Source: Desulfopila aestuarii DSM 18488 (GTDB lineage Bacteria > Desulfobacterota > Desulfobulbia > Desulfobulbales > Desulfocapsaceae). From it: a stretch of 64,000 nucleotides of DNA. This document shows positions 1 through 43,037 of this stretch, piece by piece. Both the position numbers and the translations under genes were made by a program. The notes under the pieces are model-generated. The model saw nothing but the letters and a program-made list of their open reading frames with translations, had not been told where the DNA came from and searched no databases. Each line of letters begins with the position of its first letter. The stretch's first letter is position 1. The DNA lies in NCBI GenBank assembly GCA_945863875.1, contig CAMBBS010000009.1, forward strand, positions 2,501 to 66,500, read 5' to 3'.

Positions 1-2502
1 CAAATCTTCCAGGTGTCTCTGAATTGCCCTTTTTAAGGGGCGCGCACCATAGGAAGCATTGTAACCGGTATCAACGAGAAATTCCTTGGCGCTTTTTCGA
101 ACGTGCAGAGTGATGTTTTTAGCCTCAAGACGGCTGGTGAGTTTTTTCAGTTGGATGTCAACTATGGCCAGCAGATCTTCACGCTGCAGGCTGTCAAAAA
201 TTATTATTTCATCAATTCTATTGAGAAACTCCGGCTTGAACTGGGCGTGCAGCAGTTCATCGATCTGCTGCTGGACAATTTTCTTCTCCACCCCGTCTGT
301 CGCCATGCGCATGATCAGCTGACTGCCGAGGTTGGAGGTCATTATTAATATGGTATTCTTGAAGTCTACCGTTCGTCCTTTACCATCGGTCATTCTGCCA
401 TCGTCCAAAAGTTGCAGGAGCACGTTAAAAACATCCGGATGGGCTTTTTCTATCTCATCGAGCAGGATGACCGAATACGGGCGGCGCCGGACGGTCTCGG
501 TCAGATACCCGCCCTCTTCATAACCGACATAGCCTGGGGGGGCACCGATGAGCCGGGCGACGGAGTGTTTTTCCATATATTCCGACATATCGATACGAAC
601 CATTGCCTGCTCGTCATCGAAGAGAAAGTCGGCGAGCGATCGGGCAAGTTCGGTTTTGCCCACACCCGTCGGCCCGAGAAAGATGAACGAGCCAAGGGGG
701 CGATCGGGATCCTGCAGACCAGCCCGGGCCCTTCTGACGGCATTGGCCACCGCATGTATCGCCTGCTTCTGGCCGATGACTTTTGCGGCGAGAATTTCTT
801 CGGCGTGAACGAGTTTATTTTTTTCCCCTTCGAGTAATTTGACTACGGGGATTCCGGTCCATTTGGCCACAACAGAGGCAATGTCTTCCGCATCGACCTC
901 TTCTTTCAGCATCATCTGGTGCGCTTGTATTTCCTGAAGCTTTATGTTTGCCGCCTGCAGATCTTTCTCGAGCTGTACCTTCTGGCCGTATCTGATTTCC
1001 GCAACACGGCGCAGGTCGCCGGCTCTTTCCGCTTTCTGCTCTTCGATCTGCACCTGATCGATGCGTTCTTTGATGTTTTGGATGTCACGGATGGTATCAC
1101 GCTCTCTTGACCAATGCGCCTTCATTGAGGTGAGACTATCGTTGAGGTCAGCGAGTTTTTTCTTCAACTCCTCGAGCCGTTCTTTTGAGACACTGTCCTT
1201 TTCTTTTTTCAGCGCCTCCTGCTCTATCTCAAGTTTAATCTTTTGTCGTTCGAGTTCGTCTATTTCCACGGGCATTGAATCTATTTCAATGCGTAATTGC
1301 GATGCGGCTTCATCAATGAGATCGATAGCCTTGTCCGGCAGAAATCGGTCGGTTATATACCGGGCCGAGAGGATAACCGCGGCTACCGTGGCATTGTCCT
1401 GAATGCGCACCCCATGGTGGATTTCATATTTTTCCTTGATCCCGCGCAGGATGGCGATGGTGTCATCTTCCGAGGGTTCCTGGACGAGTACCGGCTGAAA
1501 ACGTCTCTCCAGGGCACTGTCCTTTTCAATGTATTTTCGATATTCATCAAGAGTTGTCGCGCCGACACAGTGTAACTCGCCCCGGGCCAGGGCGGGTTTG
1601 AGCATATTGGAGGCATCCATCGAGCCCTCTGCCGCACCGGCGCCGACCAGGGTATGGATTTCGTCTATAAATAAAACAATCTCACCGGCTTTTTCTTCGA
1701 CTTCTTTCAAGACCGCTTTCAGTCGATCCTCGAATTCTCCACGGTACTTGGCACCGGCGACAAGGGAGCCGAGATCAAGCGTTATGACCTGCTTGTTTTT
1801 CAGAGTTGCCGGTATATCTCCATTGACTATGCGCTGGGCCAGTCCTTCGACAATGGCGGTCTTGCCGACGCCGGGTTCGCCAATGAGAATGGGGTTGTTT
1901 TTCGTTCTCCGCGACAGGACTTGAATAATACGTCGAATCTCTTCGTCGCGGCCGATAACCGGATCAATTTTGCCAAGTTTTGCCAGTTGGGTGAGATTGC
2001 GGCCATATTTCTCAAGGGCCTGATATTTTTCTTCCGGGTATTGGTCGGTTACCCGGTGGCTCCCGCGTAAAACCGACAGTGCCTGAAGAAAGCCGGTTTC
2101 TTCTATGCCGCGAATCTTCAGAGCCCTGCAGAGCTCACTGTCGGAACTTTTCAGAATTGCCAGGAAAATATGTTCCTGGCTGACATATTCATCCTGCATC
2201 TGCTTGGCAACAGCAAAGGCATTATCCAGTATCTGCTGCAATTCGCGGGACACGTAGCTTTGTCCGGCGCCCTGGCCGGAAACCCGCGGTATTTTTTCCA
2301 GAAGCTGGTTGATGTCCATCAATATCAGCGAAGGATCTGCGCCCATTTTCTGCAGAACCGGGACAACGATACCTTCAGGCTGGGTTAGGATGGCTTTTGC
2401 CAGGTGCGCAGTATGGATCTCCTGGTGGTTGCTGTCCTGGGCAAGCTGTTGAGCGGTCTGAATGGCTTTCTGTGATTTCAGGGTAAATTTGTCAAATTGC
2501 AT
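1..2502 (-). CDS. clpB: ClpB disaggregase (AAA+ chaperone), 3' end cut by window edge
   Basis: ATP-dependent chaperone that, with the DnaK system, extracts and refolds proteins from aggregates in the cytoplasm. The 834 codons visible hold the N-terminal Clp repeat domain, a first AAA+ module with Walker A GEPGVGKT near residue 205, the long coiled-coil middle domain near 400-530 rich in E, K and Q, and a second AAA+ module with GPTGVGKT near residue 607 followed by [12 protein letters not shown]. The frame is open to base 1, so roughly the last 25-30 residues lie outside the window. The ATG at 2502 follows the strong ribosome site AGAGGAG seven bases upstream. The middle domain separates it from ClpA and ClpC. 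Confidence 0.97.
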
Positions 2503-2651
2503 TATTTCTCCTCTTGGCACTCTTTTTCAGTGCATCTCTTTCATGCAGATCTGTCCCAGGCCAATGGCATCCCTTCAGGGGGTATGGTAATGAATCCTGG
2601 CTTATTTCCGGTTGACCCGGGCTAGCAGTATAGTTTGAGAGTTACGCAAAG

Positions 2652-2680
2652 AGAATAAGAATGGCAGTTTGTCGCGTCAA
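2652..2680 (-). promoter_or_regulatory. candidate sigma70-type promoter for clpB
   Basis: On the minus strand TTGACG (2675-2680) is followed after 17 bases by TATTCT (2652-2657), about 150 bases upstream of the clpB start. The spacing is ideal for a housekeeping promoter. The same stretch (CTTGAC) only weakly resembles a heat-shock sigma32 -35 element, and no CIRCE inverted repeat was seen, so heat-shock control cannot be read from this sequence. Confidence 0.4.
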
Positions 2681-2703
2681 GTTTTTGACAGAGAGCGGCG
2701 GGT

Positions 2704-2740
2704 AAAAAAAAGGCCGACTCCTGGTGGAGTTGGCCTTTTT
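2704..2740. terminator. bidirectional intrinsic terminator between the hesB-like gene and clpB
   Basis: The arms AAGGCCGACTCC and GGAGTTGGCCTT pair around a TGGT loop with one G-T wobble, with an A run on the left and a T run on the right. The hairpin lies between the 3' end of the HesB-like gene and the clpB promoter, so on the minus strand it would end HesB-like transcription. Apart from this and the clpB promoter, the 322 bases 2503-2824 show no gene. Confidence 0.75.
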
Positions 2741-2824
2741 AATTTTTATCAACATTATCTTTTGCTTCAATCTGCATCGAAGCAAGTGAAACTTGACAGG
2801 AAATATAAGCGATAGTCTACTGCC

Positions 2825-3166
2825 TCAACCGCAACTTCCAGAACTGCAGGAACCTGAACTGCATCCGCCACCGGAGCTGATCGGGTTAACCGATGTAATA
2901 CCGAAACCGGAGCGTGGACCCGCGTCAACATAATCGACGGTGATGCCACCACAGGTGACCATCAGGCTATCTTCAACCAGAAACTTGAGTGTATCGTTTT
3001 CGAAAACTTTGTCGCTGTCTTTAGGCTCATCCAGAGCCAATCCCAATGAGGGACCTGCTCAGCCGCCCTGCATCAAAGCAACACGCAACGCGGATTCAAT
3101 ATTGTTTGCCTGCATGTATTCTTTTAGTTTTGCAACAGCCAAGTCTGTTACATTTAAATCGGACAT
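2825..3166 (-). CDS. HesB/IscA-like selenoprotein (in-frame UGA read as Sec36)
   Basis: Small iron-sulfur-assembly-type protein. Reading from ATG 3166, which follows AAGGAGGAG, gives 113 residues if the TGA at 3059-3061 is read as selenocysteine. The context is MQGG-Sec-AGPSLGLALDEP, and the Sec aligns with the first conserved Cys of HesB/IscA proteins. A family of HesB-like proteins with Sec or Cys at this place is known (TIGR01911). Other cysteines are C72 (in TCGGI) and C102, C107 and C112 in a Gly/Ser-rich tail. A hairpin 20 bases after the UGA fits a bacterial SECIS. Without recoding the gene would be cut at residue 35, yet homology continues in the same frame. It stands alone, with no isc or suf gene beside it. 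Its exact role is unknown. Confidence 0.85.
3024..3038 (-). promoter_or_regulatory. candidate bacterial SECIS hairpin after the UGA codon
   Basis: In the mRNA, GGCUC-UGGAU-GAGCC forms a five-pair stem with a five-base loop carrying GG. The stem begins 20 bases and the loop 25 bases after the UGA at 3059-3061. Bacterial SECIS elements lie inside the coding region, with a G-containing apical loop about 16-37 bases downstream of the UGA, so position and loop both fit. Only the upper stem was found by eye. Confidence 0.5.
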
Positions 3167-3638
3167 GGAACTCCTCCTTGAAATTTGATTCTTACATATC
3201 TTCTCCTGGTGCGACCTGTTTGCTTGCTGGAGAAGCCTTTACTCGTAGTTTACACCTTAAGGTGAGATGATTAATAGTCAATCATCCTTGATGGCTAAAA
3301 TAGTTGTTGTGGCCAAGTGTGCAAGCATTTTCTTAAGTGTCTGCCGCATATAAAGTAGATTCTTAGCGAAATGCCAGGTGAACAGTGGCGATTTATTTTG
3401 AATAATCATGCAGTAAGAAGGCCTTTGGGTTAAAGTGAAATTCTCGTTATATTCTATTGGATAATAATTTGTTTTTTTGTTTATAGTTGAGCAATGGAAA
3501 AAGCGCAGTGGTGATCCGCCATTCTTGTCAGGTAGAGTGAACTTGACGGCGCACATGAATTTTTTACTGAGCCATCTGAAAAATTAGGTTTTTGCGACTT
3601 TGTCAAGGTTTGAAAAATACGAAAAGGAAAATTCAGCT
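3167..3638. other. AT-rich divergent intergenic region (hesB-like / pfk)
   Basis: These 472 bases separate the start codons of the HesB-like gene and phosphofructokinase, so both promoters should lie here. A minus-strand frame at 3278-3556 is open for 92 codons, but it has no ribosome site, an unusual amino acid mix and no recognisable motif, so it is not called. One perfect palindrome is listed separately. No RNA gene was recognised. Confidence 0.5.
3253..3264. promoter_or_regulatory. perfect 12-bp palindrome upstream of the HesB-like gene
   Basis: CACCTTAAGGTG is a perfect inverted repeat 87-98 bases upstream of the HesB-like start. It could be an operator half-site pair, but it does not match the known IscR type sites, and no regulator gene adjoins it. 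Confidence 0.2.
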
Positions 3639-42961: not shown

Positions 42962-43037
42962 TGGAGGCGGCGATCGGAGTCGAACCGATGAATAATGGTT
43001 TTGCAGACCACTGCCTTGGCCACTTGGCTACGCCGCC
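42962..43037 (-). tRNA. tRNA-Cys (GCA)
   Basis: 76 bases with an encoded CCA end. The acceptor GGCGGCG pairs with CGCCGCC. The anticodon loop is CTGCAAA with anticodon GCA, and the T-arm holds GGTTCGACTCC. The discriminator base before CCA is T (U73), the identity base of tRNA-Cys. D-arm GTAGCCAAGTGGCCAAGGC is normal. It lies between glgP and rnc, on the opposite strand to both. Confidence 0.96.

Follow-up and report, generated by a model that had tools for sequence, protein, structure and literature searches.

A HesB-like gene of Desulfopila aestuarii with an in-frame UGA and a SECIS-like hairpin, in an assembly whose tRNA-Sec-like tRNA carries cysteine marks

How is an in-frame UGA decoded when it stands at the position of a conserved cysteine and when the only tRNA-Sec-like gene seen in the assembly has the marks of a cysteine tRNA? 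The question is raised by a HesB-like gene in a 64,000-nucleotide stretch of the Desulfopila aestuarii DSM 18488 genome (assembly GCA_945863875.1, contig CAMBBS010000009.1, positions 2,501–66,500), hereafter the window, to which all coordinates given without a contig or locus name refer. A first-pass annotation had proposed that this gene is hidden by the UGA, and the gene proves to be real: on the minus strand the frame from ATG 3166 to the terminal stop, likewise a TGA (2827–2825), has the TGA at 3061–3059 as its single interruption, and read through this codon, number 36, the coding sequence (2825–3166) gives 113 residues of the IscA_HesB_Se subfamily. The good ribosome site claimed for the gene is found as AGGAGG at 3178–3173 upstream of the ATG, and 3' of the gene a terminator-like hairpin followed by a T-run was recognized by eye (2704–2740, minus strand). 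It had also been foreseen that a gene finder would start inside the gene and lose the Sec codon; the shorter ORF, from TTG 3046 and of 73 aa, is present and is what a standard gene finder would call. When the window was scanned for pairs of frames separated by a single TGA, 12 rows were returned, and all but the HesB-like gene were judged by eye to be noise.

For the protein profile searches codon 36 was translated as Cys. The best assignment is to NF038090 (IscA_HesB_Se), with 133.4 bits against a cut-off of 85 over residues 4–104, and Pfam PF01521 is matched with 38.3 bits (cut-off 26.3); both matches span codon 36, so that homology to HesB/IscA does extend across the TGA. The first-pass annotation was right in placing the gene in a known selenoprotein family but named the wrong one, as TIGR01911 (HesB_rel_seleno) is ruled out by a score of 40.5 bits, under its curated cut-off of 66.35. 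The score for TIGR00049 is slightly under the cut-off (58.3 vs 58.8 bits), and the protein is under every cut-off for the IscA, SufA, and ErpA profiles. NF038090 has a conserved position occupied by Sec or Cys, and here this position is the TGA at codon 36. Five distinct sequences in the PDB match the protein, and in the alignments shown, those with the three entries 1nwb, 2apn, and 1s98, codon 36 lies opposite the Cys of the G-C-S-G loop, which agrees with the proposal that the UGA takes the place of a conserved Cys. In IscA this loop Cys is a cluster ligand. The window gene thus resembles the IscA/SufA/ErpA carriers in the common PF01521 domain and in the position of the UGA at their conserved loop Cys, but it has a Sec codon where they have Cys, and in place of their C-terminal CxC, which together with the loop Cys supplies the three ligand cysteines of an A-type carrier, the protein has the more widely spaced C-terminal cysteines Cys102, Cys107, and Cys112. 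With the HesB-like selenoproteins of NF038090 it has in common the profile match, the UGA codon and a SECIS-like hairpin just downstream; the gene itself shows no difference from them, whereas the tRNA set of the host does. HesB-like selenoproteins are already listed in the literature (excerpts of PMC1088965, 2005, and PMC1794560, 2006; also of PMC13188914), and the window gene adds one member to a known and widespread selenoprotein family.

A bacterial SECIS is expected as a hairpin just past the UGA with a G in its small apical loop. The hairpin with a GG loop that had been pointed out in the first pass is found at 3024–3038 on the minus strand, spanning +21 to +35 relative to the UGA; its sequence is GGCTC-TGGAT-GAGCC, and the inner stem is formed by 3038–3034 and 3028–3024. 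It was compared among 51 UGA and 6 Cys homologues; this set contains 49 distinct UGA sequences, takes in 30 loci from the genomes of a 297-genome survey and omits L023, which is the same as the window, as well as L024, L156, and L158, which did not match the search motif. The 5-bp inner stem is possible in every one of the 49 distinct UGA sequences and in none of the 6 Cys homologues, so the comparison with Cys-containing relatives, which the first pass had advised, comes out in favor of the hairpin. When the sequences were recoded synonymously in 500 trials the stem was possible in a mean of 2.5 of the 49 and in 8 at most. Changes within the stem consist of a C-G pair that is T-A in 2 of the 49 and of one G-C pair that is G-T in 8, and the apical loop reads TGGAT in 44, TGGAC in 4, and TGGCT in 1. 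Among sequences with the commonest residue at each site the codons of the stem are nearly frozen (Ala GCT 49/49, Leu CTG 51/51, Glu GAG 49/51, Asp GAT 46/50), whereas upstream of it Gly, Pro, and Ser are each encoded by four or more synonyms. The next outer pair of the window hairpin is a T-T mismatch, found likewise in 3 of 49. When the first 48 nt are folded, the minimum-energy structure contains the stem in 37 of 51 UGA sequences, that of the window among them, but lacks it in 14, several of which favor a longer helix with bases beside the UGA; with the first 15 nt removed it forms in 49 of 51. The Cys sequences fold without the stem in all six cases, with or without these 15 nt. An Rfam scan of positions 2500–3500 gave 17 weak matches (E up to 5), none of which overlaps the hairpin. 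Taken from the sequence comparison, the prediction that the gene encodes a HesB-like selenoprotein, has a bacterial SECIS, and carries its UGA at the conserved IscA cysteine is well supported.

Relatives share the UGA. In the survey of 297 genomes of the phylum, NF038090 is matched in 165 and over the cut-off in 125, and the internal stops of these genes, among the matches listed, are TGA alone and never TAA or TAG. Among 23 related loci of named genomes, a motif search found the corresponding codon to be TGA in 21, the other 2 giving no motif match; the closest of the 23, with 97% identity, is from Desulfopila sp. IMCC35006. These loci place the host near Desulfopila and Desulforhopalus, both of which are sulfate reducers. 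In several genomes (G171, G117, G088, G014, G213, G277, and others) a TGA-form and a stop-free HesB gene lie a few hundred bases apart, and such pairs within one genome would permit mixed Sec/Cys oligomers.

It had been proposed to look for selA, selB, selC, and selD, a genome without selenocysteine machinery being named as grounds for rejecting a selenoprotein, and most of this set was found. The assembly (4.69 Mb, 93 contigs, 98.5% complete) has an intact selA on contig C52 (618 bits), a selB on C16 (353 bits), with no other selB reaching the cut-off, and a selD gene on each of C30 and C4 (loci L018 and L019), all over their cut-offs. Each of the two selD genes has one in-frame TGA. Three NF038090 matches are present: besides the window gene there is a Cys form on C30, with 128 bits, while the match on C10 is under the cut-off (74 bits). 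The missing element is selC. A canonical tRNA-Sec (UCA anticodon, G73) was not found in the assembly by Rfam model, sequence pattern or BLAST. The only tRNA-Sec match over the Rfam gathering score, among the 150 candidates scored out of 475 from the first look, has 54.8 bits and lies at C30:43537–43626 on the minus strand; order-wide, this score is exceeded in 54 of 58 genomes, and most of the best matches reach 67–79 bits. A loose tRNA-Sec pattern was uninformative, with 502 matches, and a tighter one gave 34 matches among which no tRNA-Sec was seen by eye. With the canonical tRNA-Sec of a relative as BLAST query, all 6 control genomes were matched at 88–98%; in the D. aestuarii genome the query gave chance matches of 14–19 bases alone. 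The selenoprotein interpretation of the first pass therefore stands for the gene, the SECIS and the position of the UGA, but neither for the TIGR01911 label nor, in this assembly, for selC.

It is quite possible that the canonical gene has been relocated or lies in an assembly gap, as it is found near glyQ in only 29 of the 45 relatives' loci (44 distinct, since L093 equals L161; in 10 of the 45 the flank is incomplete) and as its copy in G345 is cut by a contig end. The canonical copy of G357 likewise starts at a contig end. At the glyQ site the D. aestuarii contig parallels that of IMCC35006 through glyQ and diverges immediately ahead of the tRNA site; it is unbroken, contains no N and has no tRNA gene on it. 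Desulfopila sp. IMCC35006 and G348 have both a canonical tRNA-Sec and a tRNA-Sec-like tRNA with GCA anticodon. In another member of the family, G341 (L189, contig C6), a canonical tRNA-Sec was likewise not detected, and a U73 tRNA with UCA anticodon is present.

The tRNA on C30 (also L117:7538–7627) differs from a canonical tRNA-Sec in its identity marks. Its anticodon loop, CTGCAAA, gives a GCA (Cys) anticodon, and the T that follows the acceptor stem is U73. The D-stem has 6 bp, and the acceptor and T branch together have 12 bp. The selC* type of tRNA-Cys is also called tRNA-ReC; a literature search under tRNAReC yielded no paper. According to an excerpt of PMC7609411, selC* tRNA-Cys resembles tRNA-Sec in structure, has U73 and either a GCA or a UCA anticodon, and occurs in anaerobes including Proteobacteria; the C30 tRNA has this combination, being alike in the 6-bp D-stem, the GCA anticodon, U73, and the 12-bp acceptor and T branch. 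For the selC* type an 8/4 division between the acceptor and T branch with an A51a bulge is given; single-sequence folds of the C30 tRNA gave the 12 bp as 6+6, a result that does not decide on the 8/4 register. Set against selC* tRNA-Cys systems, no second selB was seen by eye within 4.5 kb of the C30 tRNA. The GCA tRNAs of D. aestuarii and IMCC35006 are alike at 85 of 91 positions, but the former ends in TCA and the latter in CCA, and the fold is weaker here (z of −1.5 vs −3.1). The tRNA lies beside a TGA-containing selD gene and yedF, and is 1.4 kb from the Cys-form NF038090 gene. Near it, a gene for an HmcF/TmcB/DsrK-like iron-sulfur protein (L117:7940–8937, under the cut-offs) is split over two frames; the same gene is whole in IMCC35006 (L190:6767–8101). 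The window itself contains an ordinary tRNA-Cys (GCA) at 42962–43037. A GCA tRNA that inserts Sec at UGC/UGU codons is described for Aeromonas salmonicida in the excerpted text of PMC11415595. This is a poor fit for the C30 tRNA, as U73 is a Cys mark and as the inner stem is lacking in 7 of the 8 Cys-form HesB genes in the vicinity of tRNAs of this kind.

The proximity of tRNAs of this kind to Cys-form HesB genes extends to other genomes. Regions of 5.4–18 kb (that of G322 being shortened by its contig end) were scanned around 13 tRNA-Sec-like genes judged by eye to be U73, a call that in five of the 13 depends on the register G1:C72, U73, CCA. The count excludes the copy in G357:C274 (at a contig end; canonical), a weaker second copy in G314 (C62), tRNA-Ser-like matches (G314:C114 and others), and G088:C16:67746, which has G73. 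A Cys-form HesB gene lies 0.2–4.9 kb from the tRNA in 8 of the 13 loci (L117, L189, L190, L191, L193, L195, L196, and L197), all eight over the NF038090 cut-off, and within 1.5 kb in 4 of the 13; near canonical tRNA-Sec genes such a gene was found in 0 of 45 loci (44 distinct; about 1.5 kb searched per side, less in 10). By tRNA sequence and gene order the eight loci form about three related groups and are therefore not independent. No title among the literature matches listed reports this proximity, which may nevertheless have been described in the primary tRNA papers. The proximity hints that U73 tRNA and HesB protein belong to one selenium-sparing arrangement. The Cys-form gene with the inner stem is that of L197 (7042–7395, TGT codon), in which each of the five inner pairs is retained, possibly as a SECIS fossil. 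Pooling all Cys forms gives 13 genes (6 plus 8, with one gene in both sets), of which one can form the stem.

Which residue is then placed at codon 36? Since the sole tRNA-Sec-like gene over the Rfam score has GCA and U73, and since this class is reported to give Cys, the UGA may be read as Sec, as Cys or as both. From the family and the machinery Sec is the default, and it is the most likely residue because the genome has an intact selA, both tRNAs occur in a near relative, and assembly gaps are seen at the tRNA-Sec gene. We therefore regard it as probable that the gene encodes an A-type carrier-like protein of the IscA_HesB_Se subfamily that is made by SelB-dependent read-through, normally with Sec at codon 36, and that has a predicted role in cluster handling. 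SelB would bind the hairpin downstream of codon 36 and bring a SelB-type aminoacyl-tRNA to the UGA, by which termination would be avoided, and selenocysteine would normally be inserted at the position of the first ligand cysteine of IscA. A selenolate would in this way take the place of one thiolate as first ligand, and the product, with Sec36 and Cys102, Cys107, and Cys112, may carry iron-sulfur clusters or help to repair them in this anaerobe. Counted against this reading are the missing canonical tRNA-Sec together with the Cys marks of the C30 tRNA, the 14 of 51 homologues whose minimum-energy fold over 48 nt lacks the stem, and the spaced cysteines that replace the CxC of IscA.

It is conceivable, though we consider it rather doubtful, that the UGA has two readings: Sec when selenium is available, through a canonical tRNA-Sec missed by the assembly, and Cys when it is not, through the selC*-type tRNA-Cys and SelB, so that the protein would always be made. 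The occurrence of both tRNAs in IMCC35006 and G348 is in line with this, as is the report, in the excerpted text of PMC11415595, that such a tRNA-Cys puts Cys at a Sec UGA via SelB in Desulfotomaculum nigrificans. The TCA end and weaker fold of the C30 tRNA relative to its IMCC35006 counterpart speak against it, as does its location near the split iron-sulfur protein gene, and so does the Cys-form HesB paralogue that the genome already has. Still less likely is an outright loss of the canonical tRNA-Sec, after which the UGA would be read solely as Cys by SelB and the GCA/U73 tRNA, and the UGA/SECIS signals of the HesB gene and of both selD genes would now specify Cys; of these two, the selenium-dependent switch at the same UGA is the milder and the more likely form. 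That the canonical gene was recovered from all six control genomes but neither from D. aestuarii nor from G341, and that the contig at the glyQ site is unbroken, would agree with loss. The intact selA argues against it, as do the 93 contigs of the assembly, the adjacency of the canonical gene to glyQ in no more than 29 of 45 loci, by which it can lie elsewhere, and the contig ends met at this gene in G345 and G357. The reading of the UGA as an ordinary stop or as a pseudogene lesion, with the 73-residue ORF alone made, accords with the existence of that ORF but is dismissed as highly improbable given the same UGA and hairpin across 51 homologues with frames intact on both sides, and given the lack of TAA and TAG among the matches listed in the 297-genome survey.

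The observation holds and is for the most part accounted for by a further member of a known selenoprotein family, and the tRNA is the part worth following. Standard annotation would again shorten such a gene to 73 residues. It is the decoding question that lifts the gene above routine, as the sole visible SelB-type tRNA in the assembly has Cys marks; if the loss of the canonical tRNA-Sec were true, a selenoproteome would have been turned to cysteine with its codons unchanged. Codon 36 should hold an iron-sulfur ligand, and at this position Sec and Cys would behave differently.
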